IMG/VR virus record: IMGVR_UViG_3300047551_000886
Span: 1-21,727 of that record
Strand: one strand, 5' to 3'
DNA length: 21,727 nucleotides
From: a virus
Position numbers and translations under genes: made by a program. Numbering within the stretch: the first letter of the stretch is position 1; every line of letters begins with the position of its first letter. The notes beneath the pieces were generated by a model. That model was not told where the DNA came from. It ran no database searches and worked only from the letters and a program-made list of their open reading frames with translations. Shown here one piece after another: positions 327-14,483 of this stretch.

Positions 327-811
327 TAGCTCCTAACCTTATACCCAACCTTCTTTCTTACTTCCTCGTTGAATTTCTTTATGGACATCGCCAGGACTTT
401 ATCTGAATAACGGCCCGTCTTTCTGAAGATCTTGCTTCTTAACGGATTTTCCGGAATCTCTTTCTCCATATGCATGTACTTATACATGTTGGTTATCATG
501 TGTCGGCATTTGCGCGTCACCTCGTACAGTCGGTATTCATTTCGATCTTTCTCACGGAATAGATGTATCATACCTTTGTCGGTAAGACGTTTGAAGCGCG
601 TCTTGTCCCAACCAAATACATTGGAGTACTCAACGAACTTATAGTAGTTGAACAGTCCTTCTGAGTAAAGATAAAGCAGCATCTCAAGGTCTATCTCTGA
701 CACGTCGTACTCTGTTTGTATGTACTTACGGATGACACGCCAGTATTTCAGGCAGTCTGTAGATGGCTCTCTACGGGTGTATTTCTTGATTATACTCTGT
801 TTAATTGGCAT
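323..811 (-). CDS. winged-helix DNA-binding protein, candidate late regulator
   Basis: This 162-aa protein is the only convincing minus-strand gene in the window. Residues about 40-105 fit a MarR-like winged helix. A first helix (DLEMLLYLYSEG) is followed by a probable recognition segment (FGWDKTRFKRLTDKGMI), then a charged wing (REKDRNEYRLYEV). The ends are strongly basic. It starts at ATG 809-811, which lies a few bases after a minus-strand TAAATTTG -7 box, so its mRNA may have almost no leader. That promoter interlocks with the promoter of the rightward operon, so the product may control its own gene and that operon; this is inference. It could instead be a DNA-binding virion or packaging accessory. 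No catalytic motif is visible. Confidence 0.72.
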   Translation of the reverse strand: MPIKQSIIKKYTRREPSTDCLKYWRVIRKYIQTEYDVSEIDLEMLLYLYSEGLFNYYKFVEYSNVFGWDKTRFKRLTDKGMIHLFREKDRNEYRLYEVTRKCRHMITNMYKYMHMEKEIPENPLRSKIFRKTGRYSDKVLAMSIKKFNEEVRKKVGYKVRSY

Positions 812-833
812 AGCAACAAATTTACTATCTTTG
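805..833 (+). promoter_or_regulatory. rightward Bacteroidota-type promoter (TTG-18-TATCTTTG)
   Basis: A -33 TTG at 805-807 and a -7 box TATCTTTG at 826-833 are separated by 18 bases. This matches the known Bacteroidota consensus TTG-N17-23-TAnnTTTG. The first ATG of the rightward operon is at 842, only 8 bases after the box. It is the best-matched promoter in the window. The -33 element lies just inside or beside the start of the divergent regulator gene. Confidence 0.75.
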
Positions 834-847
834 CATCAGATATGCAA
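817..847 (-). promoter_or_regulatory. leftward Bacteroidota-type promoter (TTG-20-TAAATTTG)
   Basis: Read on the minus strand, TTG (complement of 845-847) is followed after 20 bases by TAAATTTG (complement of 817-824). The regulator ATG (809-811) comes 5 bases further on. It fits TAnnTTTG exactly and overlaps the rightward promoter, whose -7 box sits within the spacer of this one. Confidence 0.55.
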
Positions 848-1042
848 ATCATTAGAAAGCATAAAGGTCTTGGCGACACAGTTGAGGCTGTGGCGAAATC
901 GATGTATGCTGATAAGATTGCAGAGGCTATTGCTCAAGGTGTAGGCGCTGAGGACTGTGGATGTGCAGCTCGTAAAGAGAAGCTGAACGACCCTGAGCTG
1001 TGGATAAACAAGATAATGTATGGGTCAAAGCAAGACAAGTAA
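842..1042 (+). CDS. small DCGC-motif phage protein, first gene of rightward operon
   Basis: This encodes 66 residues from ATG 842. An upstream extension of the frame to 716 would run back through the promoter and into the divergent regulator, so 842 is preferred. The protein has an N-terminal KGLGDTVEAVAK segment, a probable short helix, and then DCGCAARKEKLN (Cys39 and Cys41). I recognise GLGDT...DCGC..R..KLN as a pattern recurring in small proteins of Bacteroidota phage virion clusters, with unknown role. The paired cysteines could bind metal or form a disulfide. It is the first product of the switch region and overlaps the next gene by 23 bases. Confidence 0.65.
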   Translation: MQIIRKHKGLGDTVEAVAKSMYADKIAEAIAQGVGAEDCGCAARKEKLNDPELWINKIMYGSKQDK

Positions 1043-1280
1043 GTACTACGCAAAGAATCCTGAAGCGGCAGAGAAGCGCAGAGAGGATCAGCGTGAGCGA
1101 AACAAAGACCCTGAAAAGAAAAAATATCGAGCGCAACTTAATAAAGAGAGGCGCAAAAGAGGAGTTTACGGAAAAGGGGGCGCTGACATGTCTCATACAA
1201 AGGACGGAAAGTTGGTAGCAGAGAAGCCTTCACGTAATAGAGCAAGGAATGGATCTAACGGAAAAAGTACAAAGAAATGA
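1020..1280 (+). CDS. very basic small conserved phage protein
   Basis: This 86-aa product is exceptionally rich in Lys and Arg. Visible motifs are KTSKYYAKNPEA at the start, KKYRAQLNKERRKRG in the middle and DMSHTKDGK followed by NRARNGSNGK near the end. The same motif order appears in small proteins of many marine and flavobacterial phages; I know no function for them. The charge suggests nucleic-acid binding, either in packaged DNA or with host targets. The start at 1020 lies inside the preceding gene in another frame, and its stop overlaps the next start as ATGA at 1277-1280, indicating translational coupling. Confidence 0.6.
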   Translation: MGQSKTSKYYAKNPEAAEKRREDQRERNKDPEKKKYRAQLNKERRKRGVYGKGGADMSHTKDGKLVAEKPSRNRARNGSNGKSTKK

Positions 1281-1552
1281 GTGTAAGAGCATGGCATGAG
1301 ATCGTAACGGCAGCAGCAGGAACGGTAATATTGAACGATACGACTGCATACACAGATCCTATTAGCGCTATCTATGTGCTTGAGGACACTGTGTTCAATG
1401 TATTGACAGACGACGCTGGGAATGTTAAGGGCGACTATATTACTACTGCTGCAACGGCAGTTAAGGCAGGAGCTCTTATCACTCCATTTGATAAGCAGAA
1501 ACCATTTGTTAATATTGACCTCACTTCAGGGTCTGTAGTTTTGATTAAATAA
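1277..1552 (+). CDS. small virion-like protein, beta-rich
   Basis: This encodes 91 residues, rich in Thr, Val and Ala and poor in charge. The core reads AIYVLEDTVFNVLTDDAGNV, then TTAATAVKAGALITPFD and a hydrophobic end. The pattern of an IYVLEDTVF strand followed by KAGALITP looks like small decoration or fibre-associated proteins of Bacteroidota phages. I infer a virion role from composition and neighbours only. It is coupled on both sides: its ATG overlaps the upstream TGA, and its TAA overlaps the next ATG (TAATG at 1550-1554). Confidence 0.5.
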   Translation: MSVRAWHEIVTAAAGTVILNDTTAYTDPISAIYVLEDTVFNVLTDDAGNVKGDYITTAATAVKAGALITPFDKQKPFVNIDLTSGSVVLIK

Positions 1553-1797
1553 TGACAGCACTAGACGTACTTGAGTCTATAAAGAAACATGGATTTACTG
1601 GAGCAACAGTTATAGCCTTGTTTTGGATGAATAATCGTTTATCATCAGTTGAGTCACGTTTGTACGATTGCTATGATGATCTACGTCATACTGAAATAAG
1701 GATGCCGGATAGGAAAACTGAGCCATTGACGCACAATCCTAAACGGCTATTAGCAGTTTTGCCGTCAGATCGTAAGATAAAGAAGAATGTATGTTGA
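1552..1797 (+). CDS. holin-like/BhlA-like small membrane protein
   Basis: This encodes 81 residues. An N-terminal amphipathic stretch (LDVLESIKKHG) leads into one hydrophobic segment at about residues 14-26, followed by NNRLSSVESRLYDCYDDL, a short coiled-coil-like cytoplasmic part. This one-TM-plus-charged-helix layout resembles BhlA/UviB-type holin-like proteins. Placement directly before a two-TM membrane protein and upstream of a muramidase supports a lysis role. The C-terminal third (from about residue 50) is basic and unlike those families. The function is inference; an uncharacterised membrane anchor is possible. Confidence 0.5.
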   Translation: MTALDVLESIKKHGFTGATVIALFWMNNRLSSVESRLYDCYDDLRHTEIRMPDRKTEPLTHNPKRLLAVLPSDRKIKKNVC

Positions 1798-2024
1798 GTC
1801 TGATACGAATGCTTATTGCAGACATTGCTGTAGACACGCTAATGCGTGATGGTAAGTGGTCGCGTACGTCTTTAACTATGTTTACAGCTTGGCTGTTTGT
1901 AATTCTTATCGCTGTGATCGACTACATTCGGACAGGTTTTCATTTTGAGGTTTGGTGTACAATGGTTGCCGTTTCGGTAGGTGTTAAGGTAACTGACGCA
2001 TGGAGTAAAAAAATACAGAAGTAA
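1791..2024 (+). CDS. candidate holin (two membrane segments)
   Basis: This encodes up to 77 residues with two predicted membrane spans, roughly residues 26-45 (around AWLFVILIAVIDYI) and 51-68 (around CTMVAVSVGVKV), and a basic C-terminus (SKKIQK). Between the N-terminal helix and the first span is DGKWSRTS, a motif I recognise from small holin-like proteins of Bacteroidota phages. The start is ambiguous: ATG 1791 overlaps the preceding gene by 7 bases, whereas ATG 1812 would begin after its stop. The small size, two spans and linkage to spanin and muramidase genes support a holin or holin/antiholin pair with the preceding gene. Confidence 0.55.
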   Translation: MLSLIRMLIADIAVDTLMRDGKWSRTSLTMFTAWLFVILIAVIDYIRTGFHFEVWCTMVAVSVGVKVTDAWSKKIQK

Positions 2025-2635
2025 TGTACGGATACGGAGGAAAACTTATTGTTGTAAGTGGAGATGTGCCAGTAGGCGCAACGCTTATGAAGACGGGTCA
2101 AACAACGTCTTACAGGACGGGTGACGATGGAGATATCGAAGCAGGTCGGGCAACTTCATTCACGGTGCTTTCATCAAACAATCCTTTCGGTAACACCAAC
2201 CGATTTACAGACGAGTTAGGAGGTCAAACGTACACGAATACTATCGTTGTTGATTGGTCTACTTATGACGGCTCAACTGTGTTGGGGTGGAGAAAAACAA
2301 AGTCCACAGGTTATACAAATTGGAATACAGCTATTGACAATGCCCTTGCTTTAAGTATTGGCGGTTTTGCAACTGGTTGGAGGCTTCCAAATAGAGGGGA
2401 GCTATTCAGTATACTGAATCACGGTGTAGCCACATCTGTATTGAATTATGCACCTTTCAGCATCACGGCTGACACAAATATATGGACGGGAACAACAAAC
2501 AACATAACAACAGCTAACGCGTTTGTTTTAGCGTCAACAGGGACTGGTTCTATGGGTGCTTTTGATAAAACATCAGTAGCAGCAGAATACATTCCTTGCA
2601 GAACATTTACCGTATCAGGAACAACACTTTCATAA
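2024..2635 (+). CDS. DUF1566/Lcl-C domain protein, putative adhesin or virion surface protein
   Basis: This encodes 203 residues. From about residue 85 the sequence fits the DUF1566 (Lcl C-terminal) domain: a WN.AIDNA helix, then GWRLPNRGELFSI and later IWTGTT and a C-terminal strand region. This domain has a C-type-lectin-like fold and occurs in phage and bacterial surface adhesins. The N-terminal part has SYRTGDDGD and NTNRFTDELGG, which I associate with Bacteroidota phage versions. It starts at TAATG with the holin candidate. A host-surface or glycan-binding role is inferred. It is odd to find it within a lysis cluster, so it may decorate the virion. Confidence 0.6.
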   Translation: MYGYGGKLIVVSGDVPVGATLMKTGQTTSYRTGDDGDIEAGRATSFTVLSSNNPFGNTNRFTDELGGQTYTNTIVVDWSTYDGSTVLGWRKTKSTGYTNWNTAIDNALALSIGGFATGWRLPNRGELFSILNHGVATSVLNYAPFSITADTNIWTGTTNNITTANAFVLASTGTGSMGAFDKTSVAAEYIPCRTFTVSGTTLS

Positions 2636-2636
2636 T

Positions 2637-2864
2637 ATGAACTATCAATTTTCACAATTCGCAGGAACGATCATTAATCCTACCGTTGAAGTAGTAGGTG
2701 TTCACGATAACATTCAGAACAAGACTTGCTCTGTGTCAGTAGTGCTTTCTAATGCAGGAGGCAGTTACGGCATTAATCTTTCAGGCTTTACATACACGGA
2801 AACTTGGGAGGATGCCGATATTGAAGCATGGGTAAGTTCTGAACTTGATGGTTACGCAATTTAA
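2637..2864 (+). CDS. small conserved virion-like protein
   Basis: This encodes 75 residues beginning MNYQFSQFAG, with a beta-rich centre (TCSVSVVLSNAGGSYGINL) and an acidic tryptophan-containing end (TETWEDADIEAWVSSEL). The product has no membrane span and no signal peptide. The core pattern of VEVV...DNI..KTCSVSVVL with a W-E-D motif recurs next to DUF1566 proteins in Bacteroidota phages, suggesting a partner of the upstream protein; no function is known to me. The ATG lies one base after the upstream stop, and the TAA overlaps the next ATG (TAATG at 2862-2866). Confidence 0.5.
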   Translation: MNYQFSQFAGTIINPTVEVVGVHDNIQNKTCSVSVVLSNAGGSYGINLSGFTYTETWEDADIEAWVSSELDGYAI

Positions 2865-3382
2865 TGAACTACCTAAAAGGCATATTGTTATACGTTTTGT
2901 CGATGATTGCAGTCGCTCTGTTTGTGTTGGCAATGTCAGGCTGTGACGCATCCAAGCAACAACAGAAAGGCTGGAATAAGTTCGTTAAGTACGGAGGCAA
3001 AATAGATACGGTCAAGCAGACGGTAAACGTTCCTGTATATATTAAGGGGAAGGACGGTAGGGATAGCTTGATTTATGTAGAGAAGGAGATCGATTGTCCG
3101 GAGCCGAAGATAGAGTACAAGGACAGATGGCATGTAAGGCGTTTGGACAAGAGGGAGAGAGATAGCTTGAAGCATGTAAAGAAGATGGCAAAGATTCATG
3201 CAGATCTGACAATCGATAGTTTGAATAAGGTCATAAAGATAGAGCGTCAGAAGAAGGGTCAGGCAAGGCATGAAGCTAAAGAGGCTAAAAACGCTAAGTC
3301 AGGCGGATGGTCTAATCCGTGGATATGGGTAATCATAGGTGCTATGGTAATAACTTCAATCTATTTAATTAAGAAGCAATGA
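2864..3382 (+). CDS. candidate unimolecular spanin (lipoprotein signal plus C-terminal TM)
   Basis: This encodes 172 residues. The N-terminus is a hydrophobic signal segment (about residues 4-23) ending in AMSGC, a lipobox-like motif with Cys27 as the lipidation site. The middle is charged and periplasmic in type: first beta-prone (TVNVPVYIKGKDGRDSLIYV), then a long helical Arg/Lys-rich stretch (about residues 90-145). A C-terminal span follows (about residues 149-168, WSNPWIWVIIGAMVITSIYL) with a short KKQ tail. An N-terminal lipoprotein with a C-terminal membrane anchor is the layout of u-spanins, which join outer and inner membranes at the end of lysis. It overlaps the muramidase start (ATGA at 3379-3382). 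The family itself is not recognised; the call rests on topology and context. Confidence 0.6.
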   Translation: MNYLKGILLYVLSMIAVALFVLAMSGCDASKQQQKGWNKFVKYGGKIDTVKQTVNVPVYIKGKDGRDSLIYVEKEIDCPEPKIEYKDRWHVRRLDKRERDSLKHVKKMAKIHADLTIDSLNKVIKIERQKKGQARHEAKEAKNAKSGGWSNPWIWVIIGAMVITSIYLIKKQ

Positions 3383-3942
3383 GCAATATACAGAAGTACG
3401 TAGAGTTTGTAAGAAAGTGGGAGGGATCTCACGGAAGAAGTACAAATGATGTGAGTGCTGCAAAGTTTCCATGCCCTACACCATTTAAGGGCAAGACAGG
3501 ATGGCATACCAGTTCAGGAGTCACTTACAAAGTTTGGGTTTCTGAATATGGAACAGGCAGAGATGCTGAGTTTTTCTCTATGCCAACAGACATGTGGTGG
3601 AATATTTTCAAGAAACGATTTTGGAATAAGGTGTCTGCTGACAGTTTTAATTTCGGTATAGCCGTATTGCTTACAGACTGCGCATGGATGAGTGGAATAT
3701 CTGAGGGTGTTGACACGTTGCAAGATGCGTGTATTGCTCTTGGTTCAAAAATAAAGGACGATGGAGATATGGGGCCAAAGACAATAGCTGCTGCCAATTC
3801 TCACGATCCAAGGAAACTGTTCGACGAGATGTATAAAGTACGTGCTGCATTCTACAAGCAGATAGCTGTGGGTAAGCGCGCTGTTTATTACAACGGTTGG
3901 ATGAATAGATTGAACGACATCAAAGATAAATTCAGACCATAA
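3379..3942 (+). CDS. endolysin, GH108-type N-acetylmuramidase
   Basis: This 187-aa protein would cut the glycan strands of host peptidoglycan. Residues 7-17 (YVEFVRKWEGS) contain the probable catalytic Glu15 of the GH108 EGG motif, here EGS. A short motif GWHTSSGVTYKVW follows at 41-53, in the place of the family's G.T..GIT segment. A C-terminal peptidoglycan-binding part (about 125-180) carries DDGDMGPKTIAAAN. Its length matches single-domain phage muramidases. There is no signal peptide or membrane anchor, so it needs the holin. It follows the spanin candidate with an ATGA overlap. I am confident of the muramidase class and less so of substrate details. Confidence 0.85.
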   Translation: MSNIQKYVEFVRKWEGSHGRSTNDVSAAKFPCPTPFKGKTGWHTSSGVTYKVWVSEYGTGRDAEFFSMPTDMWWNIFKKRFWNKVSADSFNFGIAVLLTDCAWMSGISEGVDTLQDACIALGSKIKDDGDMGPKTIAAANSHDPRKLFDEMYKVRAAFYKQIAVGKRAVYYNGWMNRLNDIKDKFRP

Positions 3943-4079
3943 TGGCAAAGAAGGCAGACTCTGTAGTAAAGTTGCAGAAACCGAAGGTAAGCAGACCAGG
4001 TGTACATTCAAAATGCAGGTCAAGCAAGCTTAAGTCAAGCAAGAACTACAAAAAGAGATATCGCGGACAAGGAAGGTAA
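3942..4079 (+). CDS. 45-aa basic conserved phage protein (RPGVHSK motif)
   Basis: The gene begins in a TAATG overlap with the endolysin stop and encodes 45 residues. The protein is Lys/Ser-rich with the motif RPGVHSKCRSSK and an ending NYKKRYRGQGR. I recognise this signature as a tiny protein recurring in marine and Bacteroidota phage structural clusters. Its role is unknown; high charge suggests binding to nucleic acid or to a virion surface. It ends the first transcriptional block, since a new promoter begins 12 bases later. Confidence 0.6.
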   Translation: MAKKADSVVKLQKPKVSRPGVHSKCRSSKLKSSKNYKKRYRGQGR

Positions 4080-4090
4080 ATAAAATTGTT

Positions 4091-4121
4091 TATCTTTGTA
4101 CCTAATCTAATTTAATTCAAA
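4091..4121 (+). promoter_or_regulatory. promoter -7 box TATCTTTG with A/T-rich leader
   Basis: TATCTTTG at 4091-4098 is an exact TAnnTTTG box in a true intergenic space. No clear -33 TTG is visible at the expected distance. The leader to the ATG at 4122 is about 20 bases, A/T-rich, without a Shine-Dalgarno sequence, and ends AATTTAATTCAA. It probably drives the packaging genes. Confidence 0.6.
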
Positions 4122-4382
4122 ATGACAAAAATCAAAAATCTGAAGGATAACTCTACGCCTTCAAAAATCACATCAGAAGAACTTTCTGAAATGCAGGGCT
4201 TGAGCCGTGCATACAATCAGGTTAGAGCCAAGGTTGCTGACCTATCGTTCATGCATTACCAAGCACTACGCAACATGGAGGCGATGGAAGCTCGTATGGG
4301 TAAGTTCAATGAGGACATTACCAAGAAGTACAAGCTGAAAGAAGACGCGAAGATCGATCAATTAACAGGTGAGATAAAATGA
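4122..4382 (+). CDS. small coiled-coil phage protein
   Basis: This encodes 86 residues, mostly helical. The sequence begins ITSEELSEMQGL, then has heptad-like hydrophobics through about residue 70 (NQVRAKVADLSFMHYQALR, MEARMGKFNEDITKKY). No catalytic or membrane features are seen. Similar small coiled-coil proteins occur between the lysis and terminase genes of Bacteroidota phages. It is the first gene after the promoter at 4091, and its stop overlaps the next start (ATGA at 4379-4382). The role is unknown. Confidence 0.5.
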   Translation: MTKIKNLKDNSTPSKITSEELSEMQGLSRAYNQVRAKVADLSFMHYQALRNMEAMEARMGKFNEDITKKYKLKEDAKIDQLTGEIK

Positions 4383-4597
4383 CAATCCGGAAGATATCGG
4401 TAGGTACTGACCCACTGAAGGCTATGCACTATCAGTTGGGTTCTTATGTGATGAATGGCACGCATGAGATACAGTACATTGAGCTTACCGACTTCGGATT
4501 TGACATTTGGATAAAGAATGGTGCCAACGAAATATTGAAGTGGAAGACCATTAATCTTTACATGCCTGTAATAATCGAACACAATCTTGAGTTTTAA
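4379..4597 (+). CDS. small conserved phage protein (AMHYQLG motif)
   Basis: This encodes 72 residues with a beta-rich pattern: RKISVGTDPLKAMHYQLGS, then IQYIELTDFGFDIWIKNG and a final LKWKTINLYMPVIIEHNL. The MHY, IWIKN and MP..IEHN blocks are in the same order as in a short protein I associate with flavobacterial phage packaging clusters. No enzymatic motif is present. It is coupled to both neighbours (ATGA upstream, TAATG downstream). A structural or packaging accessory is possible; no better call can be made. Confidence 0.5.
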   Translation: MTIRKISVGTDPLKAMHYQLGSYVMNGTHEIQYIELTDFGFDIWIKNGANEILKWKTINLYMPVIIEHNLEF

Positions 4598-5172
4598 TGC
4601 GCTCACTGAATAGCTTTATTTGCAGACCAAAGAACGATAGACGGTACGAGAACACAAAAGAGATCGAGGGGAAACAAGTAGTTACATCATCAACCGACGA
4701 GGATCATCTTGCTGTAAACCGTATCGCTATCGTTGAGTCTGTTCCTATTAACTATAACGGCCCTATAAAGGATGGTGACGAGATAGTTGTGCATCATAAC
4801 ATCTTCCGTCTGTATGGAGACATGAAGGGTCGCGAGAAATCGTCATATGCCTTCCTGTTTGACAACAAGTTTGTTATTGACTACATTGACATATTTGCAT
4901 ACAGACGACCTGAAGGCAAGTGGTGCGCTATTGCACCATACTGCTTTGTAGCACCTGTTGACAAGGTGGGTAGTCAAGGATTTGATGAAAGTGGTCAATA
5001 CGAACCTCATCGCGGAGTGATAGTCTATCCTAACGAAGAACAGAGAGACCTTAATCCAGGTACTGAGATTATCTACCGTCCTCATATTGAGTATGAATTC
5101 AATATTGACGGTAAGAAGTTATATCGAATGAAAACGCATCATGTATGTCTGATAAACGAAAGGAAATCTTAG
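4597..5172 (+). CDS. conserved phage protein, possibly GroES-like
   Basis: This encodes 191 residues. The part at about 40-70 reads NRIAIVESVPINYNG, then GPIKDGDEIVVHHNIFR, like the K-x-GD-x-V turn of GroES/Cpn10 proteins. A later FVIDYIDIFAY and CFVAPVD could be the closing strands of the same barrel. The C-terminal third (about 120-190) is unfamiliar, with IVYPNEE and a conserved-looking YEFNIDGKKLYRM. If it is a co-chaperonin it would help fold the capsid protein with host GroEL; this is inference by pattern. Length is about twice that of GroES. It overlaps the following gene by 28 bases. Confidence 0.42.
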   Translation: MRSLNSFICRPKNDRRYENTKEIEGKQVVTSSTDEDHLAVNRIAIVESVPINYNGPIKDGDEIVVHHNIFRLYGDMKGREKSSYAFLFDNKFVIDYIDIFAYRRPEGKWCAIAPYCFVAPVDKVGSQGFDESGQYEPHRGVIVYPNEEQRDLNPGTEIIYRPHIEYEFNIDGKKLYRMKTHHVCLINERKS

Positions 5173-5429
5173 AGGCAGGCCGAGTGGCTGTTGACGAGCT
5201 TATTCGCGTACTGCGTGACCCTATTATTACTGGAGGAGATAGCGATCTGTCGGCAGACAAGATGAAGACTGCTGCTGCGGCAAAGCGTTTGGCATTTGAG
5301 GACGCTCTGGCTATGCTTGACAAGATAGAGCAAGAGGAGCCAGATCCAAATCAAGCTGAGATAGCAAAGAAAGCTGAGTCAATACCTGTATCATTTGTTG
5401 AGTCTAAAGCAAAAGGTAAAGAACGGTGA
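5145..5429 (+). CDS. candidate small terminase subunit
   Basis: This encodes 94 residues, largely helical and acidic at the C-terminus. An N-terminal KRKEILEAGRVAVDELIR is followed by DSDLSADKMKTAAAAKRLA and EDALAMLDKIEQEE. Its position directly before the large terminase, overlapping it by GTGA at 5426-5429, suggests the small subunit that recognises and presents phage DNA. I do not recognise a helix-turn-helix, and the protein is shorter than most small terminases (usually 140-200 aa), so the role is inferred from place. ATG 5145 gives a 28-base overlap with the previous gene. Confidence 0.45.
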   Translation: MSDKRKEILEAGRVAVDELIRVLRDPIITGGDSDLSADKMKTAAAAKRLAFEDALAMLDKIEQEEPDPNQAEIAKKAESIPVSFVESKAKGKER

Positions 5430-7633
5430 GTCTATACTCAGTCATAGAGAACTATATTGACGGACGCGCTCGTGCAGCTCACAAGTGGGAGTACGGCTAT
5501 GACGAGAAGTACGACATGGTTGTTATCTCAAAAGATGGTACATTAGGAGAGGTATATGAGATTAACGGTCTCAAGATAGGTCTTCCTAGCTTACCAAAAG
5601 GTAACTTGCCAAAAGGTAACAACAGATGGCAGCCGAAAGAATATCCTAAAGAACTGTCGCGCATCAAGTCTATCTTTGAGTGGAACTCTATGTCTACCGA
5701 GTTTAAGGTAAAATGGGTAGACTACATACAGGCAGAGTTTGAGAAGCGTGAAAACGGTTATTGGTTTCTGAATAACGGTAAGCCGACATACGTTACAGGC
5801 AGTCACTACATGTACCTACAGTGGTCAAAGATCGATGTAGGTATGCCTGACTTTCGTGAGTCCAATAGGATATTTTGGATATTTTGGGAGGCATGTAAGG
5901 CTGACGAGAGATGTTTCGGAATGTGTTATCTAAAGAACCGTCGTTCCGGATTCTCTTTCATGTCGTCAGGTGAAACTTCAAACCTTGGTACTTTGGCGAA
6001 AGACTCCAAGCTTGGTATTCTGTCAAAGACGGGTGCTGATGCCAAGGAGATGTTCATTAACAAGGTGGTACCTATCGTAAGGAACTACCCGTTCTTCTTT
6101 AAGCCTATACAGGACGGATCTGACAATCCAAAGACTGAGCTATCGTTTAGATTACCTGCAAAGCGTATCACTCGTAAGAACATGTCAGAGACTGACACTG
6201 AGGATATCACAGGTCTTGACACAACTATCGACTGGCTAAATACGGCAGATAACTCATACGATGGTCAGAAGCTTCTACTATTAGTTCATGATGAGAGCGG
6301 TAAATGGCTCTTACCAAACAACATACTTAATAACTGGCGCGTAACAAAGACATGTCTTCGTCTTGGTAGTCGCATTGTAGGTAAGTGCATGATGGGGTCA
6401 ACCGTTAACGCACTTGCTAAAGGTGGTCAGAACTTTAAAGATTTGTATCTTGACTCAGATCCACGAAAGCGAAATGCAAACGGTCAGACAAAGAGTGGTC
6501 TTTACTCGCTGTTCATACCTATGGACTACAACATGGAGGGCTTCATTGATGAGTTTGGTCATGCTGTAATTGAAGACCCAGCAAAGCCTGTCATGGGTAT
6601 TGATGGCCGTCAAATAAAGATGGGCGTTGTGACTTATTGGAACAATGAAGTTGACGCACTAAAGCATGACCCTGATGCATTGAATGAATTCTATCGTCAG
6701 TATCCACGAACTGAGTCACACGCATTCAGGGATGAGTCTAAGCAGTCATTGTTTAATCTGACGAAGATCTATCAGCAGATAGACTATAATGACGGTCTGA
6801 TTAGAGACAGAGTGATTACACGCGGAAGTTTCCATTGGAAGAATGGAGACAAGGACAGTGAGGTAGTATGGACTCCTGACCCAAGAGGCAGGTTTGTCGT
6901 TGCATGGCTACCACCTAAAGAGATGCAGAACCGTTTTGTTATGAAGAACGGAAAAAAGTATCCAGGCAACGAGGAGTACGGAGCATTTGGATGTGACCCG
7001 TATGACATCTCAGGAGTTGTTGGTGGAGGTGGATCGAACGGAGCCTTACATGGGCTTACTGGATTTACGATGAATCCACAGATACCATCAAACTTCTTTT
7101 TCCTACAGTATATCGCTCGTCCTGCAACAGCGGAGATATTCTTTGAGGATGTGCTGATGGCCTGTGTGTTTTACGGCATGCCTTTACTTGCAGAGAACAA
7201 CAAACCAAGACTACTTTATCACTTTAAGAACAGAGGGTATAGAGGTTACTCTATGAATAGACCTGACAAGCATATCACTCAGTTGTCAAAGACGGAGCAG
7301 GAGCTTGGTGGTATTCCAAACACGTCTGAGGACATTAAGCAGACGCATGCCTCAGGTATTGAGTCGTATATAGAACAATATGTTGGGTATGACGTTGAAG
7401 GCGAGTATCGTAGTTCTGATGATTGTGGAAACATGTACTTCAATCAGACGTTAGAGGATTGGGCAAGATTTGATCCTAACAACCGAACGAAGCACGATGC
7501 ATCTATCTCATCAGGTCTTGCTATCATGGCAGTCCGTAGGCACACGTTCCGCACTGAAACTAAGAAGTCCAAAATTTCCGTATCTTTGTCGAAGTACAAT
7601 CAAGACGGAAGTTCCAGTCAACTGATCAGATGA
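5426..7633 (+). CDS. terL: terminase large subunit
   Basis: This 735-aa protein is the packaging motor: an N-terminal ATPase and a C-terminal nuclease. A deviant Walker A loop sits at residues 170-177 (KNRRSGFS), Walker B at 283-290 (LLLLVHDE, with D289 and E290). The RNase H-like nuclease starts at GCDPYD (first Asp near 524), and HDASIS near 691 is the likely final metal ligand. The length is typical of crAss-like and related Bacteroidota phages. Start is GTG at 5426, overlapping the preceding stop. Residues about 55-64 carry a duplicated LPKGN. The gene overlaps the portal gene by ATGA at 7630-7633. The call is firm. Confidence 0.93.
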   Translation: MSLYSVIENYIDGRARAAHKWEYGYDEKYDMVVISKDGTLGEVYEINGLKIGLPSLPKGNLPKGNNRWQPKEYPKELSRIKSIFEWNSMSTEFKVKWVDYIQAEFEKRENGYWFLNNGKPTYVTGSHYMYLQWSKIDVGMPDFRESNRIFWIFWEACKADERCFGMCYLKNRRSGFSFMSSGETSNLGTLAKDSKLGILSKTGADAKEMFINKVVPIVRNYPFFFKPIQDGSDNPKTELSFRLPAKRITRKNMSETDTEDITGLDTTIDWLNTADNSYDGQKLLLLVHDESGKWLLPNNILNNWRVTKTCLRLGSRIVGKCMMGSTVNALAKGGQNFKDLYLDSDPRKRNANGQTKSGLYSLFIPMDYNMEGFIDEFGHAVIEDPAKPVMGIDGRQIKMGVVTYWNNEVDALKHDPDALNEFYRQYPRTESHAFRDESKQSLFNLTKIYQQIDYNDGLIRDRVITRGSFHWKNGDKDSEVVWTPDPRGRFVVAWLPPKEMQNRFVMKNGKKYPGNEEYGAFGCDPYDISGVVGGGGSNGALHGLTGFTMNPQIPSNFFFLQYIARPATAEIFFEDVLMACVFYGMPLLAENNKPRLLYHFKNRGYRGYSMNRPDKHITQLSKTEQELGGIPNTSEDIKQTHASGIESYIEQYVGYDVEGEYRSSDDCGNMYFNQTLEDWARFDPNNRTKHDASISSGLAIMAVRRHTFRTETKKSKISVSLSKYNQDGSSSQLIR
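5590..5619 (+). repeat. 15-bp imperfect tandem duplication inside terL
   Basis: Two adjacent copies, cttaccaaaaggtaa (5590-5604) and cttgccaaaaggtaa (5605-5619), differ at one base. They encode LPKGN twice in an N-terminal linker before the ATPase domain. Confidence 0.8.
7581..7588 (+). promoter_or_regulatory. possible intragenic promoter box before portal gene
   Basis: TATCTTTG lies within the last codons of terL, 42 bases before the portal ATG. The match to TAnnTTTG is exact, but no -33 TTG is visible and the bases are also coding, so this is a weak call. Confidence 0.3.
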
Positions 7634-10074
7634 GTGAAAAGAAAGTAGAACTAAAGGTATCGGCTACCTCGTTTCCGGATATTAATGCTTCGACCCAAGT
7701 AAAGGAGTCTGAGGCGTATGGTTTGCAAGTAGCAAGAGCTATTGAGGGTGAATGGTTTAGGCGAGCAGGTAATTCTTGCCGTTATTATGACCAATATGCT
7801 GAGTTCCATAGAAGAAGACTTTACGCTCGTGGCGAACAGGCGATAGGCAAGTATAAGAACTTGCTTGCTGTTGACGGAGACCTTTCGTACATGAACATCA
7901 ACTGGGACATCGTAAAGATCGCCCCAAAGTTCGTTGACATTGTTGCAAACGGTATGGCTGACCGTTTGTATAAGGTACGGGCTACTGCTCAGGACGCTAT
8001 GTCTGCTGAGAAAAAGAACCTGTTCCAAGATATGATCGAGGCCGACATGGTCGCTAAGGACTTCCTTACGATGACCAAAGAACAGTTCGGTGTTGACGCA
8101 TTCAATGTAGATCCTAAAGACTTACCTCAGACAGATGACGAGCTTGCTCTGTATATGGAGCTTCGATACAAGCCGTCTATCGAGATTGCTGAGGAGATAG
8201 CTATCGACAATATTTTTGAGATGAACGACTTCCAGGTTGTTCAGCGTAGATGCGATCTTGACCAAATTACTTTAGGTCTGTCGTTCACTAAGCATGAGTT
8301 CTCAAAGAATGAAGGGCTTTTAGTTAAGTATGTCGACCCTGCCGCTATGGTATGGAGCGAGACAGAGGAGCCTGACTTCAGCGATTGCTTCTATTTTGGA
8401 GAGATAAAGAATGTACACTATACAGAGCTTCGTAAGATAGACCCAACTATAACTGACGAGCAGCTTAAAGAGATACAGCAATTTGGATCTGCATGGTACA
8501 ACAATTACTCTATTGTCCGGCAGTATTACGACAGTGCATTCTTGAATGAGACTGTCACACTACTCTACTTCAACTACAAGACTGAGAAGAAGTTTGTCTA
8601 CAAAGAGAAAATTACAAAGCAGGGTGGTAAGAAGGTTATTGCTAAGGATGACTCTTTCGTTAATGCTGAGAGTGAGAACTTCCGAGTTGTGGAGATTCCT
8701 AAAGAAGTATGGTACGAGGGAATATTAGTTGCTGGTTCTAATCATTTGCTGAAGTGGAACATGATGAAGAATATGGTTCGTCCTAAGTCTCCATCACAGA
8801 AGGCGCTTCCTAACTACATTGGGTATGCACCACACATGTACATGGGCAGGTTCGACTCATTGGTCAATAGAATGGTTCCGTTCCTCGACAACATTCAGCT
8901 TATACATATCAAACTTCAGCAGATTCAGGCTCGTATGGTTCCTGACGGTGTATTCATCGATGCTGACGGACTGAACGACATTGACCTCGGAAAAGGCGCT
9001 AACTACAATCCGGAGGAAGCGCTGAAGCTGTACTTCCAGACAGGTAGTGTTATTGGTCGTTCGTATACACAGGACGGAGAGTTCAACAACGCTCGCGTTC
9101 CAATTCAAGAGCTACAATCCAATAGTGGATTCAATAAGATACAGGCGTTAATCACTGCCTACAATCAGAATCTTAACATGTTGCGCGATGCCACAGGTCT
9201 TAATGAGGCCCGTGACGGATCGATGCCTAAAGCTGACGCACTTGTTGGTGTTCAGAAGTTAGCGGCATTGAACAGTAACACTGCAACACGACACGTACTT
9301 GACGGGCGACTGTTAATGGTTAGAAGACTTGCTCAGGCTCTGTCATTACGCATGGCAGACATTCTTGAGTACGCTGACTTTAAGGAGCAGTTTGCAATGC
9401 AGATAGGTAAGTATAATTTGGCTATCCTTGAGGACGTTAAGAACTTATACCTACACGACTTTGGTATTTATGTTGACTTGCTTCCTGACGAGCATGAGAA
9501 GGAGATGCTTGAGGCAAACATTCAAGTATCTCTTCAGCGAGATCAGATAGACCTTGAGGACGCTATTGACATTCGTAACGTGAAGAACATCAAGCTTGCT
9601 AATGAGCTTCTAAAGATGAAGCGCAGACGTAAGTTGGAGGACTTGAGAGCGCGTGAGGATCAGCAACAGCAGATGCAAGCTCAGATAAATATGCAGTCTC
9701 AGCAGATGGCAGCTCAAGCTAAGATGGAGCAGGCACAGATGGAGGCTCAATCAAAGATATCTATCAAAGAGGCTGAAACGAACTTTGAGATGCAGAAGAT
9801 GCAGTTTGAGGTTGAGAAGAAGAAAGAGCTTATGGCACTTGAGTTCCAGTACAATATGGAGCTGAAGGGTATAGAGACAGACGGACTGATGAAGCGTGAG
9901 AGCGAGAAGGAGAAAGCCAAGGACAAGCGAGTTGACTTACAGGCTACCCGTCAGTCTGAACTGATTGAACAAAGACAGAAAGGTCTTCCTGCAAAGAACT
10001 TTGAGAGTTCCGGTAACGACATTATTTCAGGTGGTGGAGGAGCGTTCGACCTTGAGACATTTATGCCTAAGTAA
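7630..10074 (+). CDS. portal protein
   Basis: This 814-aa protein forms the DNA entry and exit ring at one vertex of the head. Its position right after terL, its length and its overall pattern match portals of crAss-like and podoviral Bacteroidota phages. Residues about 515-580 (LRDATGLNEARDGSMPKADA onward) form the conserved core that follows the membrane-like wing region in this family. From about 675 to 780 the protein turns Gln/Met-rich and helical (QQQMQAQINMQSQQMAAQAK), a long C-terminal coiled coil that probably forms or extends the barrel. The last 25 residues are glycine-rich. It is coupled to terL by an ATGA overlap. Confidence 0.88.
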   Translation: MSEKKVELKVSATSFPDINASTQVKESEAYGLQVARAIEGEWFRRAGNSCRYYDQYAEFHRRRLYARGEQAIGKYKNLLAVDGDLSYMNINWDIVKIAPKFVDIVANGMADRLYKVRATAQDAMSAEKKNLFQDMIEADMVAKDFLTMTKEQFGVDAFNVDPKDLPQTDDELALYMELRYKPSIEIAEEIAIDNIFEMNDFQVVQRRCDLDQITLGLSFTKHEFSKNEGLLVKYVDPAAMVWSETEEPDFSDCFYFGEIKNVHYTELRKIDPTITDEQLKEIQQFGSAWYNNYSIVRQYYDSAFLNETVTLLYFNYKTEKKFVYKEKITKQGGKKVIAKDDSFVNAESENFRVVEIPKEVWYEGILVAGSNHLLKWNMMKNMVRPKSPSQKALPNYIGYAPHMYMGRFDSLVNRMVPFLDNIQLIHIKLQQIQARMVPDGVFIDADGLNDIDLGKGANYNPEEALKLYFQTGSVIGRSYTQDGEFNNARVPIQELQSNSGFNKIQALITAYNQNLNMLRDATGLNEARDGSMPKADALVGVQKLAALNSNTATRHVLDGRLLMVRRLAQALSLRMADILEYADFKEQFAMQIGKYNLAILEDVKNLYLHDFGIYVDLLPDEHEKEMLEANIQVSLQRDQIDLEDAIDIRNVKNIKLANELLKMKRRRKLEDLRAREDQQQQMQAQINMQSQQMAAQAKMEQAQMEAQSKISIKEAETNFEMQKMQFEVEKKKELMALEFQYNMELKGIETDGLMKRESEKEKAKDKRVDLQATRQSELIEQRQKGLPAKNFESSGNDIISGGGGAFDLETFMPK

Positions 10075-10084
10075 TAACATACAC

Positions 10085-10456
10085 ATGAAAACAGATAAAG
10101 AAAAAAGAGCTGCAAAAAAAATGGCTAAAGTTGAGTCTATAGATAGCAATAAGAGGCTTAACAAAGTAGTTGACAGAAGGTATAAAAAGTTAGACCGTAG
10201 ATACGATAGAGCTGCTGGTAATGAAAGGAAGACTGCTAAAATTGATAAGAAGTATGGATACGACTATGAGTCAGCTAAGAAATCTGGAATAACTCCAGAC
10301 TCAACCGGACACATGGGATCTATAGGTAATGATGGACTTATATTGAAAGGTAAAAAACATCCTTCAATGATAAAAACTAAAAAAGTAGAGAGACTTTTAG
10401 GTAACAAGATAGTAAGGAAGGATAGTAGGCTATACACTAAGCCTAAAAAACAATAA
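10085..10456 (+). CDS. basic conserved phage protein (PDSTGHMGS motif)
   Basis: This encodes 123 residues from ATG 10085; extending the frame upstream would overlap the portal gene by over 100 bases, so this start is chosen. The N-terminal half is a charged helix (KRLNKVVDRRYKKLDRRYD). The C-terminal half carries YDYESAKKSGITPDSTGHM and then GLILKGKKHPSM, a motif pair I have seen in small phage proteins from diverse environmental phages. Function is unknown; position between portal and scaffold suggests a head-internal or assembly protein. The DNA is visibly more A-rich than the portal gene. Confidence 0.6.
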   Translation: MKTDKEKRAAKKMAKVESIDSNKRLNKVVDRRYKKLDRRYDRAAGNERKTAKIDKKYGYDYESAKKSGITPDSTGHMGSIGNDGLILKGKKHPSMIKTKKVERLLGNKIVRKDSRLYTKPKKQ

Positions 10457-10458
10457 TA

Positions 10459-10752
10459 GTGAGTTTGGACAAGAAATCAATGAAGTGTAACTCTCCGAAG
10501 AAGACACCTAGTCATCCAACGAAGAGTCATGTAGTTAAGGCGTGCGAGAACGGCAAGGAGAAAGTAATCCGATTTGGACAACAAGGTGTTAAGACAAATC
10601 AAACAGCAGGTCAGCGAGAAGCTTTCAAATCTAGGCATGCTAAGAATATATCTAAGGGTAAATTGTCGGCAGCATACTGGGCTGATAAAGTAAAATGGAG
10701 TCCAAGCAAGACAGCTCAACCTAAGAACAAGAAATGGGTGAAAGGATCATGA
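10459..10752 (+). CDS. basic conserved phage protein (RFGQQGVKT motif)
   Basis: This encodes 97 residues from GTG 10459, two bases after the previous stop; the alternative ATG 10480 would remove SLDKKS, which resembles the N-terminus of relatives. The protein is highly basic, with KCNSPKKTPSHPTKSHVVKA, then KVIRFGQQGVKT and RHAKNISKGKLSAAYWADKV. This block order is one I recognise in an uncharacterised protein of phages from many hosts. The high positive charge and conserved K/R spacing suggest contact with DNA or RNA, possibly packaged. It overlaps the next gene by ATGA at 10749-10752. Confidence 0.65.
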   Translation: MSLDKKSMKCNSPKKTPSHPTKSHVVKACENGKEKVIRFGQQGVKTNQTAGQREAFKSRHAKNISKGKLSAAYWADKVKWSPSKTAQPKNKKWVKGS

Positions 10753-10976
10753 AAAAGATTTCAATACAAGGAGTTAATCACTTGGTGAAAAAAAATAAAA
10801 ATGGTGATATTGTTGTAGAACATACCAATATAAAGAATGGTAAATACGACAAAATCAATTTAACTAAAAAAACAAAGGCAAAGACAGTATCAGAAGGAAT
10901 CAAGTCAACCAAAGAATGGCATAAGGAGAATCCGTATCATGAAAAAACCAAACGATCAAAAGTTACCAAAAGGTAA
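10749..10976 (+). CDS. small lysine-rich conserved phage protein
   Basis: This encodes 75 residues, about one third Lys/Arg. ATG 10749 overlaps the upstream stop (ATGA), better than in-frame ATG 10734. The protein has KKISIQGVNHLVKKNKNGD, then IKNGKYDKINLTKK and a helix EGIKSTKEWHKENPYH. The GKYDKINLTKK..AKT...G...TKEWHKENP pattern is known to me from small Bacteroidota phage proteins of unknown role. Its C-terminal 13 codons overlap the start of the following gene by 38 bases in another frame. Confidence 0.55.
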   Translation: MKKISIQGVNHLVKKNKNGDIVVEHTNIKNGKYDKINLTKKTKAKTVSEGIKSTKEWHKENPYHEKTKRSKVTKR

Positions 10977-11070
10977 GTCTGAATCAAAAAAGACAAACAA
11001 TATACCAATGGGGTATCATGTTATGCCTGATGGAAAAGTAATGAAAAATTCAGCTCATAAAAAGAGGTAA
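10939..11070 (+). CDS. 43-aa small phage protein (MPDG motif)
   Basis: The ATG at 10939 begins inside the preceding gene in another frame. The 43-residue product is Lys-rich and ends YHVMPDGKVMKNSAHKKR. The H.MPDG..M..S.HK motif is one I recognise from small phage proteins located before capsid genes, function unknown. The conserved motif and its setting in a cluster of overlapping small genes argue that it is translated. There is no membrane span. Confidence 0.5.
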   Translation: MKKPNDQKLPKGKSESKKTNNIPMGYHVMPDGKVMKNSAHKKR

Positions 11071-11090
11071 AAAACATATTACGTTTTTTT
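11069..11090 (+). terminator. weak A/T hairpin with T-tract
   Basis: AAAAAAC (11069-11075) can pair with GTTTTTT (11083-11089) around a 7-base loop, followed by more T. The stem is almost entirely A-T, so termination would be weak. It lies between the small-gene cluster and the next promoter. Confidence 0.35.
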
Positions 11091-11093
11091 TGT

Positions 11094-11122
11094 TAATTTT
11101 GTAACAATTTAATTCAATTTAT
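11094..11122 (+). promoter_or_regulatory. promoter box TAATTTTG before scaffold gene
   Basis: TAATTTTG at 11094-11101 fits TAnnTTTG, and the leader to ATG 11123 is A/T-rich, without a Shine-Dalgarno sequence, and contains AATTTAATTCAA as in the leader at 4109. No clear -33 TTG is seen. It would start the scaffold-MCP unit. Confidence 0.5.
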
Positions 11123-12220
11123 ATGGAAATCAAAGGTATGCGCCTTGTAGATGAAGAGCCTAAGTCAAAGGCCGAAATCGAACAGGAGCTTATTGAAAAA
11201 CACGAGGAGGAGGTAGCAGCAAAGCAAGATGCTATTGTTGAAGATAAGCCGATCGTGGAAGAAGTGAAGCCAGAGACTACGACTCTTGAGCTTGACGACG
11301 AAAAAGTTCTTTCATTTATTAGAGAGAAGAAGAACCTTGAGATAGGTTCTTTAGACGAATTTGAGGAGCTTCTTAAAAAGAGGAACACTCCACAGGAAGA
11401 GATCGATGAAGTTGCGCTTGCATACAATAAGTACAAGCGAGAGACAGGTCGTTCTTTAGAAGACTTTATCCAACTACAAAAAGATTGGTCTTCAGAAAAG
11501 CCTGAGGTTACTCTTCGCGAGTTCTACAAGCAGCAGGATCCTGACTTGACTGAGCGTGAGCTTAACGCTATGATGAAGCAGTTCAGTTATGATGAAGATC
11601 TTGATGACGAGGACGAGATCGCTGAGAAGCAAATCAAAATGAGAAAAGAATTGAAGGATGCAGTAAAGTTCTTCGATCAGCAGAAGGATCAGTATAAGTT
11701 GCCTGTCGCGTCGGCAGATAACTTTGTTCCGGAGGGTGAGAGAGAACATTACAAGTCCTACAAGCAATACGTTGAGTCCTCATCTGCTATTGAGCAGGAG
11801 AACAAGAAGCGTTCTGAGTTCTTTGCAGACCAAACGAGTAAGCTATTCAGCGACCAATTTGAAGGTTTCAAATTTAAGGTTGGTGAGTCAGAGTTGAAGT
11901 GGAAGCCTGCGGAGCCGTCGGCAATGAAGTCAGCACAGTCTGACGTATCTAAGTTCCTTGGTTCATTCCTTGACGACAATGGGTACGTTAAAGACGTTGA
12001 GGGCTTTCATAGGGCAATAGCTGGTGCTATGAACATCGACAAATTAGTTTCTTTCGCTTATGAGCAAGGTAAGGCTGATGGTATCGGCAATCTTGAGAAA
12101 GAGGCTAAGAATCTTGATGTAAATGTAAGAGAGACACCGAAAGTTGCCAACGACAAAGGTATCAGAATGCGAATTGTTGATGATGGACAGCCAACGTTTA
12201 AGATAAAGGGTAAATTATAA
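11123..12220 (+). CDS. putative capsid scaffolding protein
   Basis: This 365-aa protein is strongly acidic and mostly helical, lies between the portal and small-gene cluster and the major capsid gene, and starts after a new promoter box. The N-terminus is rich in Glu/Lys (AEIEQELIEKHEEEVAAKQD), the middle carries a very acidic block DEDLDDEDEIAEKQIK (about residues 155-170), and the C-terminus has a basic end (IRMRIVDDG, KIKGKL) that could contact the capsid shell. Coiled-coil-like composition, acidity and gene order are those of tailed phage scaffolds that guide MCP assembly and then leave. No sequence family is recognised, and no protease motif is seen. Confidence 0.68.
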   Translation: MEIKGMRLVDEEPKSKAEIEQELIEKHEEEVAAKQDAIVEDKPIVEEVKPETTTLELDDEKVLSFIREKKNLEIGSLDEFEELLKKRNTPQEEIDEVALAYNKYKRETGRSLEDFIQLQKDWSSEKPEVTLREFYKQQDPDLTERELNAMMKQFSYDEDLDDEDEIAEKQIKMRKELKDAVKFFDQQKDQYKLPVASADNFVPEGEREHYKSYKQYVESSSAIEQENKKRSEFFADQTSKLFSDQFEGFKFKVGESELKWKPAEPSAMKSAQSDVSKFLGSFLDDNGYVKDVEGFHRAIAGAMNIDKLVSFAYEQGKADGIGNLEKEAKNLDVNVRETPKVANDKGIRMRIVDDGQPTFKIKGKL

Positions 12221-12244
12221 ACAACAAGCTAAAAACAAACAAAA
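12221..12244 (+). promoter_or_regulatory. A-rich leader without Shine-Dalgarno before MCP
   Basis: The 24 bases between scaffold stop and MCP start are almost entirely A and C, and end acaaacaaaa. No GGAG-like site is present. A-rich leaders with A at -3 and -6 are known to support strong translation in Bacteroidota. Confidence 0.45.
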
Positions 12245-13645
12245 ATGGCTGGATCTATTACATCGGGGTCGATATCACTAACCCCAAGTGCAGTTAAGGC
12301 GACATTGTCGTCTAACTACATCTCTACATTCGACTTGCTCGATCAGTATTTGCCTGATCTTCAGGAGCAAGAATTTGCACGTTACGGTGAGCGTACTATC
12401 AAGGGATTCCTTGAGAAGATGAGTGCTGAAATGCCTTCTAACTCTGACCTTATCCGTTGGACTGAGGAAGGTCGTCTTCACACTAAGTACACTTCTGTTT
12501 CTACTACAACAGCGGTTGTGTCTGGTCAGCAGACATTTGACATTGGCGCATCAAACCATAACTTCCGTCTTAACGAGACAGTTATTCTTTCTTCTGCTTC
12601 AGGAGGTAAGGCTGAGAAGGCTATTATTGTAGACATCGCTCCAGGATCTCCTGCTGACCCTACTCAATTTACAGTAGCTTACTATTCTGCAGTAACTCCA
12701 GGGTTTTCTAATCCAACGACAGATGTTATCGTATTTGTTTACGGTTCTGAATTCAAGAAGGGTGATAACGGAATGCAGGGATCTTTAGAGGCTGAAACAG
12801 AAGTGTTTTCAGTTAAACCTGTAATCATCAAAGATCGTTTTGAAATCGCTGGTTCTGACATGGCTCAGATTGGATGGGTTGAAGTTGAAACTGACCAAGG
12901 TCTTTCTTACCTTTGGTACTTGAAGTCTAAGTCTGATACTCGTAAGCGTTACGACGACAAGCTTGAAATGATGATGATCGAACATGTTGATGCTGATCCT
13001 TCTTCAGGTGTTGATACATATTTTGGTACTTCTGGTACATGGGGATCAATGGGTCTATTCGAATCTATTGAAACTCGTGGAAACGTATGGTCAGGTGGTA
13101 CTCCATCTACTCTTGCTGACTTCGATGATATCCTTGAGCAGTTAGATGGTCAGGGTGCTATCGCTGAGAACACTCTTTTCGTTAACCGTGCGTTCGCTCT
13201 TGCTATCGACGATATGCTTGCAGCTCAGAACTCTTACGGTGTTGGAGGTACTTCTTACGGATTGTTCGACAACAACGAGAAGATGGCATTGAACCTTGGA
13301 TTCACAGGATTCCGTCGTGGTTCTTACGACTTCTATAAGACTGACTGGAAATACCTTAACGATGCTACTACTCGTGGTGGTCTTGTTGGTGGTAAGGTTA
13401 ATGGAGTACTTGTTCCTGCTGGAACTATGAACGTATACGATGAGGTGATGGGTAAGCGAGTTTCTCGTCCGTTCCTTCACGTTCGTTACCGTGCTTCTGA
13501 GACTGAGAACAGAAAGTATAAGACCTGGATCACTGGTAGTGCAGGTGGTGCTACAAACAGCGATGTTGATGCAATGTATGTTAACTTCTTGTCAGAGCGT
13601 GCGCTTTGTACATTGGGAGCTAACAACTTCTTCATCTTCGAGTAA
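12245..13645 (+). CDS. major capsid protein
   Basis: This 466-aa protein would form the icosahedral shell. The call rests on its position after the scaffold, its length and a capsid-like pattern: an N-terminal arm with DQYLPDLQEQEFARYGERTI (about 31-50), a central region with an inserted beta-rich segment (about 88-170) and a compact C-terminal part ending LCTLGANNFFIFE. Codons are strongly biased to CGT, GGT, TCT and GAC/TAC-type choices, unlike neighbouring genes, as expected for the most abundant virion protein. It follows the scaffold by 24 bases and precedes a strong terminator. An HK97 fold is expected but cannot be shown from sequence alone. Confidence 0.85.
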   Translation: MAGSITSGSISLTPSAVKATLSSNYISTFDLLDQYLPDLQEQEFARYGERTIKGFLEKMSAEMPSNSDLIRWTEEGRLHTKYTSVSTTTAVVSGQQTFDIGASNHNFRLNETVILSSASGGKAEKAIIVDIAPGSPADPTQFTVAYYSAVTPGFSNPTTDVIVFVYGSEFKKGDNGMQGSLEAETEVFSVKPVIIKDRFEIAGSDMAQIGWVEVETDQGLSYLWYLKSKSDTRKRYDDKLEMMMIEHVDADPSSGVDTYFGTSGTWGSMGLFESIETRGNVWSGGTPSTLADFDDILEQLDGQGAIAENTLFVNRAFALAIDDMLAAQNSYGVGGTSYGLFDNNEKMALNLGFTGFRRGSYDFYKTDWKYLNDATTRGGLVGGKVNGVLVPAGTMNVYDEVMGKRVSRPFLHVRYRASETENRKYKTWITGSAGGATNSDVDAMYVNFLSERALCTLGANNFFIFE

Positions 13646-14455: not shown

Positions 14456-14480
14456 GGCCGACAGAGATGTCGGCTTTTTT
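14456..14480 (+). terminator. intrinsic terminator with GAGA tetraloop
   Basis: GCCGACA (14457-14463) pairs perfectly with TGTCGGC (14468-14474) around a GAGA loop, followed by six T. It ends the preceding gene and directly abuts the next promoter. Confidence 0.92.
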
Positions 14481-14483
14481 GTT

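Follow-up and report, generated by a model that had tools for sequence, protein, structure and literature searches.

The 21,727-base DNA analysed here (G000), referred to as the window, is a virus record from IMG/VR. It carries genes for a terminase large subunit (TerL, 5426-7633), a P22-like portal (7630-10074) and a virion structural protein (12245-13645), and domain matches (Glyco_hydro_108 and PG_binding_3) identify a GH108-type endolysin on the + strand (3379-3942). Near the left end, a gene on the - strand (323-811) encodes a putative regulator of 162 residues that belongs to phrog_17028, a family without an assigned function. It diverges from a + strand series that begins with a gene for a 66-residue protein (842-1042), which has a conserved cysteine pair and an RK-x-x-LN-like end and is predicted to be expressed from a near-leaderless mRNA. 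The second gene of the series belongs to phrog_6437 (1020-1280), likewise without an assigned function. At its other end, the regulator gene is convergent with a virion-side ORF, and the two ends overlap at 323-326. Only weak terminator-like sites are present there, so that any late transcript reading through would run antisense to the regulator gene.

By terminase, the closest named relative is the uncultured podovirus MW202828 (65.9% identity). Other named relatives are Elemovirus phages of Flavobacterium and, at a greater distance, Cellulophaga phages, and because of this neighborhood the host of the window phage is probably a member of Bacteroidota. The complete genome of MW202828 consists of two oppositely oriented arms. 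Its regulator, annotated as 'repressor protein', is a solitary opposite-strand gene within the late arm and adjoins groES/groEL. The late arm of MW202828 closes with one gene for a 3,860-residue protein (741-12320), the sole annotation of which is reticulocyte binding/rhoptry protein.

The AlphaFold2 model of the regulator (45 sequences) had a mean pLDDT of 88.6 and an order of helix-helix-helix-helix-strand-strand-helix-helix. The best Foldseek match was the MarR-operator DNA complex 5h3r (E 5.6e-4). With VIA-align, the best match was the transcriptional regulator Tm0710 (2a61; Z 9.4, rmsd 3.4 over 105 residues), and MarR-family proteins came next, matches within 1 Z being counted as tied. 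A profile search against solved structures returned a MarR protein at E 0.039. Pfam gave no family at the cut-off for the window regulator and no MarR match, and weak matches to SarA/Rot, PadR and HTH_34 were found in three, two and two of the 45 family members, respectively. Judged from the predicted fold, the leftward product is a MarR-like winged-helix protein, which bears out the winged-helix assignment of the first-pass annotation; a shared fold alone is no proof of function. Two other roles were considered and rejected. As a small terminase the regulator is a poorer candidate than the 94-residue gene product encoded directly before TerL (5145-5429), which suits that position better. A role like that of T4 MotA was suggested by the MotA activation domain (Z 8.4) among the tied matches; the late promoters, inspected by eye, have no shared upstream box.

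The junction between the two divergent genes holds two opposed predicted promoters. On the + strand, the -7 element TATCTTTG (826-833) lies 18 nt beyond a TTG at the -33 position (805-807), which is weak, reading ATTG (804-807) instead of TTTG. On the - strand, a full TTTG (848-845, its TTG at 847-845) falls within the second and third codons of the rightward gene and is followed after 20 nt by the -7 element TAAATTTG (824-817). The first-pass annotation had given TTG-18-TATCTTTG at 805-833 and TTG-20-TAAATTTG at 817-847, and both assignments are exact. The opposed -7 elements are separated by 1 bp, and both fit TAHHTTTG and match in sequence the Bacteroidota housekeeping -7 element (TAnnTTTG). 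The first-pass annotation did not mention a perfect dyad at 830-848, with the arms TTTGCAT and ATGCAAA around a 5-nt spacer (CAGAT). This candidate operator joins the end of the rightward -7 element to the opening codons of the gene that follows it.

According to the available text of a study of Flavobacterium johnsoniae (PMC6847099), the Bacteroidota housekeeping sigma factor has the -33/-7 consensus TTTG/TANNTTTG. In that species the -7 element was refined to TAHHTTTG with a nearly invariant last G, the -33 element is weak as well, and AT-rich positions are reported at about -18 and -28. Transcription starts 4-5 nt past the -7 element, and by this rule the starts at the junction are predicted at 838-839 (+) and 812-811 (-), leaving short leaders of 3-4 nt and 0-1 nt, respectively. 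The predicted start sites (TSSs) are thus 26-28 bp apart, and the predicted spans of the two promoters from -35 to +20 overlap across about 45 bp.

A simple sigma-70 scan of the window detected neither junction promoter because it relies on the E. coli consensus. The Bacteroidota motif was enriched: the whole window contains 28 TANNTTTG sites against 16.6 +/- 4.2 expected from Markov shuffles, and 11 TTG-N16-22-TANNTTTG sites against 2.2 +/- 1.5. There are 23 TAHHTTTG sites, six of them intergenic by our own gene list. All six precede a gene start, with predicted leaders of 0-26 nt, and two of the six are the junction pair.

Relatives of the regulator were drawn from viral contigs, TerL relatives, phage records and six bacterial metagenome-bin loci. 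The profile search found 194 regulators, and 110 with distinct start regions were kept after dropping regulators below 100 bits, starts less than 150 bases from a contig end and regions more than 93% similar. Two opposed TAnnTTTG elements within 21 nt were present in 51 of the 110 start regions; in shuffles the mean number was 0.29 and the maximum 2. Repeated at six shifted control positions, the test gave 0/109, 0/109, 0/109, 2/110, 1/110 and 0/110 (3/657 in total). An earlier pass had found pairs in 43 of 86 distinct start regions (TAHHTTTG alone 40/86, shuffles 0.13); pair counts depend on our own choice of start codons, for which some earlier counts used another rule than the count of 110 regions. 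In three loci (L064, L041 and L042), pairs appeared only once the starts were corrected. Among the 59 regions without a pair, 20 were scored as co-directional with the ORF just 5', and the 39 not so scored include wrongly called starts and near misses, namely TAATTTTA or GAAATTTG on the regulator side in the window clade and TATCTTTA in the L040 group. Only 31 of the 102 promoters at the paired junctions have a TTG around -33.

Tight opposed pairs (within 20 nt) are rare, with one to five per genome in six long or complete genomes, and in five of the six the regulator junction is among them. Tight pairs with an offset of 13 in four genomes were set aside, since the recurring stretch, as judged by eye, is the 3' coding end of TerL. 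The overlapping divergent promoters proposed by the first-pass annotation are therefore borne out by motif match and conservation (51/110 against 0.29). The check by conservation in relatives that the first-pass annotation had named turns out in favor of the overlap, which is better supported than it had claimed. In many related phages the overlap is kept and the exact spacing varies, falling into three groups. This persistence suggests, from sequence comparison, a real shared control point.

The window clade comprises 13 rows, counted by eye with near copies included; a 14th, L193, was excluded, as its junction adjoins another gene and has a spacing of 19. In all 13 the operon -7 element stands 8 nt 5' of the ATG (with ATGCAAA or ATGCAAATG-like starts), reading TATCTTTG in 10 and TAAATTTG in three. 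The regulator-side element is strict in three and has one mismatch in 10, mostly through loss of the last G, at unchanged spacing. The dyad arms match at 7/7 positions in four rows, 6/7 in eight and 4/7 in one. In L199 the junction ORF is just a few codons long. The first gene begins ATGCAA in all 14 distinct junction copies. As codon 2, CAA thus occurs in 14/14 junction copies; elsewhere it occurs in three copies, and AAA (14) and AGA (6) lead the commonest codons listed. The bias fits a constraint at the DNA level, with the reservation that the junction copies all belong to one clade. As a proven operator the dyad was rejected, because its arms are explained by ATGCAAA as codons 1-3 and by the TTTG end of the -7 element plus a common CA; moreover, the match falls to 4/7 in L203 and is weak in L017. 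The flanks TGTCRCAAA/TTTGYGACA, nearly unique to the junction in MW202828 and G005, were not seen at the other junctions and were likewise discarded.

The paired elements occur in two orders: back-to-back, as in the window, with the operon -7 element upstream of the regulator -7 element, and face-to-face, the reverse. On a quick maximum-likelihood tree of the regulator (85 rows), at least four switches between the orders were counted. The predicted TSS separations of the 51 pairs were -3 to 9, 26-28 and 36-38 bp, with none at 10-25 or 29-35 bp, and 14 of the pairs had a separation of 7 or 9 bp. In the back-to-back class, which forms 12 clusters at 70% identity, the offset was 9-11 in eight and 19-21 in four, with none at 12-18. 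An offset of 9-10 puts the partner -7 element at about -18 and one of 19-20 at about -28, so that the two could be mutual upstream AT elements. Each -7 element may thus act as the upstream AT element of the other, a post hoc phasing argument from 12 clusters. Dyad symmetry beyond the -7 elements was not significant in the back-to-back flanks (26/60 matches against 21.7 +/- 3.6 in shuffled flanks, P 0.15), and a family-wide shared operator is therefore not supported. The corresponding tests in the face-to-face class were void because both flanks overlap.

Further -7 elements precede late genes of the window. On the + strand, TATCTTTG (4091-4098) lies upstream of the terminase and portal genes, before 4122, and TAATTTTG (11094-11101) upstream of the capsid genes, before 11123. 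By our own gene list, TAHHTTTG sites also lie at 14484, before 14522, and at 15093 (TATCTTTG), before 15105, a start that is our own call. Among homologues of the 11123 gene, 21 of 28 distinct start regions contain a -7 element at a distance of 15-23 nt; for the 4122 gene the distance is 17-23 nt and the count six of eight, and for the 14522 gene the count is one of three. In MW202828, 13 -7 sites, the junction included, lie shortly 5' of late-strand gene starts. By sequence, the junction promoter thus shares its class with the late promoters, and it is one of many. The first-pass annotation had described the layout of a mutually exclusive switch at the start of the small-protein, lysis and virion-associated operon; a switch for the whole virion operon is not supported, because the late genes have predicted promoters of their own at 4091, 11094, 14484 and 15093, two of them conserved in relatives.

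At 15093-15105, the TSS predicted from TATCTTTG is the A of the ATG of a 247-residue tail-region gene, giving a predicted leaderless mRNA. The -7 element is kept at 4-5 nt in 5 of 25 distinct start regions of its homologues, and ORFs of 240-245 residues with a -7 spacing of 4 occur in four of the six long genomes. At 14457-14491, a terminator-like hairpin (GCCGACAGAGATGTCGGC) with its T-run runs directly into the -7 element TATCTTTG. Similar fusions of T-run and -7 element are seen at 11094 and 15093 and in MW202828 (23378 and 24213).

Promoter-plus-ORF sites in the six long genomes number 9, 10, 14, 9, 5 and 10 on the TerL strand and 2, 2, 5, 3, 2 and 2 on the other; in four of the six, the regulator -7 element is among the two to five sites off the late strand. 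The scarcity of host-type -7 elements there (before 5-14 ORFs on the late strand against 2-5 on the other in these genomes, L169-L190) suggests that early genes use another promoter or polymerase. A giant virion polymerase was considered as the cause of the missing early promoters and rejected: the D-[FYLVI]-D-x-D motif is absent from the 3,860-residue protein of MW202828. In L173 (about 18409) and L177 (about 18415), a -7 element off the late strand lies 5 nt 5' of an ORF of 55-57 residues, possibly a conserved leaderless early gene.

The regulator is not always divergent from its neighbors. It lies on the TerL strand in 15 of the 21 TerL-bearing loci that have it, mostly from one long-branched clade, and no -7 pair was seen in these lineages. 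In the Elemovirus record it stands directly 3' of late-strand genes. That the regulator needs a divergent layout is accordingly not supported. In Elemovirus and Maribacter phage Panino (L007, 11560-12525; L006, 11641-12459), the cultivated relatives identified here, the regulator is co-directional with the ORF just 5'. The end of that ORF in Elemovirus resembles the phrog_6437 protein of the window, and the two genes therefore seem to stay neighbors despite the orientation flip. The absence of visible lysogeny genes remarked on by the first-pass annotation concerns a 21.7-kb fragment; among 17 longer relatives, a tyrosine integrase (PF00589) was found in one and a serine recombinase (PF00239) in none. 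Taken together, the several late promoters and the co-directional regulators weigh against a master switch.

The reading preferred here takes 805-848 as a single promoter of the bidirectional type that would be used by the housekeeping polymerase of the host (sigma-ABfr type). Its leftward face would start the regulator (323-811) and its rightward face the first small late gene (842 onward), both mRNAs being nearly leaderless if the published spacing applies. With 1 bp between them, each -7 element is found about 9-10 bp upstream of its partner, where the AT-rich -18 position falls, and may there help the other promoter. Given the overlap, one polymerase would be bound at a time. By analogy, the regulator would most likely bind in or near the junction, limit its own synthesis and tune the small-protein/lysis segment. 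Exclusion would matter only if one side were strongly driven, for example late in infection, as can be argued from the E. coli cases below. Since later virion genes have their own promoters, the junction would exert control locally rather than act as a master switch. The promoter anatomy is very probably correct. Action of the regulator at the junction is more tentative, falling a little short of an even chance. The explanation as a whole, a compact and probably autoregulated bidirectional-type promoter serving the regulator and the small-protein/lysis genes, is rather probable. A bolder version is distinctly unlikely. It would have the interlocked sigma-ABfr -7 elements activate each other through positions -18 and -28, the symmetric block serve as the operator of the MarR-like protein encoded there, the phage clade keep the interlock while its geometry flips, and the whole hold a self-limiting ratio of regulator to small-protein/lysis products during the lytic cycle. 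If true, such a mutual-activation junction would be a previously undescribed promoter type.

The overlap might instead result from genome packing only, with two promoters squeezed into a short gap, exclusion incidental and the regulator acting elsewhere or not here. Basal activity left no room for competition, being too low, at the five bidirectional promoters tested in E. coli, as far as the accessible part of PMC12825309 describes them, and this agrees with packing, as do the lack of extra dyad symmetry in the back-to-back flanks and the retention of the regulator, with no pair seen, in the lineages that have it on the TerL strand (15/21 loci). Nevertheless, the overlap survives at least four changes of geometry with its spacing limited to three groups, and pairs of comparable tightness are otherwise rare in these compact genomes, so that packing alone is rather unlikely. 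The low basal firing in E. coli also means that occupancy exclusion is not per se a switch. Of the mutually exclusive switch proposed by the first-pass annotation, the exclusion of two polymerases stands as a probable consequence of geometry, and the switch itself is not supported.

A bistable switch between the regulator and the late/virion operon would draw on the same blocked simultaneous binding, on a MarR-like regulator transcribed away from an operon that may be its target, and on the precedent of plasmid pLS20, where overlapping divergent promoters form one (PMC4207663, available text). It is very unlikely in view of the further promoters within the virion region, the co-directional arrangement of regulator and TerL in 15 of 21 loci, the 16 of 17 long relatives without a recombinase, and a regulator -7 element that shares the promoter class of the late genes while being among the few off-late-strand sites in four of six genomes. 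Alternatively, only the rightward promoter might be active, the leftward TAAATTTG serving mainly as its AT-rich -18 element and the regulator being transcribed from another start. The degenerate regulator-side element in 10 of 13 window-clade rows, mostly without the last G, points that way. This is also very unlikely. In the window, the leftward element matches fully, has a TTTG at -33 and lies before an ATG that is one base away from the expected TSS. Among the relatives, 51 of 110 start regions have a full match in both elements, and the next upstream -7 element on the regulator strand is no nearer than 2482.

In the open-licence literature, no paper was recognised by title or abstract as describing the junction or the regulation of this aquatic phage group, and the available parts of PMC8375218 and PMC7077304 do not describe the junction. 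Bidirectional promoters have been described for -10 elements with sigma-70-type symmetry; a bidirectional promoter with asymmetric Bacteroidota -7 elements would reach a similar outcome, in a phage setting, with one conserved regulator and discrete spacings that suggest helical phasing. The 51 junctions form a comparative set for asking whether core elements can replace the upstream elements of the opposite promoter. The junction is also a candidate site for the control of the late and lysis genes of this aquatic phage group.

The junction and its regulator resemble MarR-family autoregulators that are divergent from their target in the predicted winged-helix fold, the divergent gene order and the short shared intergenic region. 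The arrangement differs in that the regulator has no Pfam MarR match and the first target gene varies between lineages. In the switch regions of phage 186 and lambda, the promoters of regulator and operon overlap or point towards one another. Unlike in those two systems and in pLS20, the operon here has further downstream promoters. The likeness to the pLS20 conjugation switch, as far as the available text covers it, again lies in regulator and operon promoters that overlap or face each other (PMC4207663). With the sigma-ABfr promoters of PMC6847099, as presented in its accessible sections, the junction shares the TAHHTTTG match of both -7 elements and the leftward -33 TTTG; the leaders are predicted to be shorter here (0-4 nt) than in F. 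johnsoniae, where those of 87% of the predicted transcripts exceed 10 nt. A further parallel in arrangement is with the E. coli and Salmonella bidirectional promoters of Warman, Grainger and colleagues, which, in the portions of PMC12825309 and PMC10268837 available, have divergent TSSs and overlapping core elements, often lie between divergent genes, and admit one polymerase at a time, as the overlap would impose here. At such promoters in E. coli, one side can be repressed when the other is strongly activated (PMC12825309, same portion). Their TSSs are 7-25 bp apart, with spacings of 10 and 23 bp also common, in contrast to the predicted 26-28 bp in the window and -3 to 9, 26-28 and 36-38 bp in its relatives. 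Moreover, these enterobacterial promoters share a near-symmetric -10 element of the TATAAT type, whereas the junction has two complete, asymmetric copies of the sigma-ABfr -7 element.
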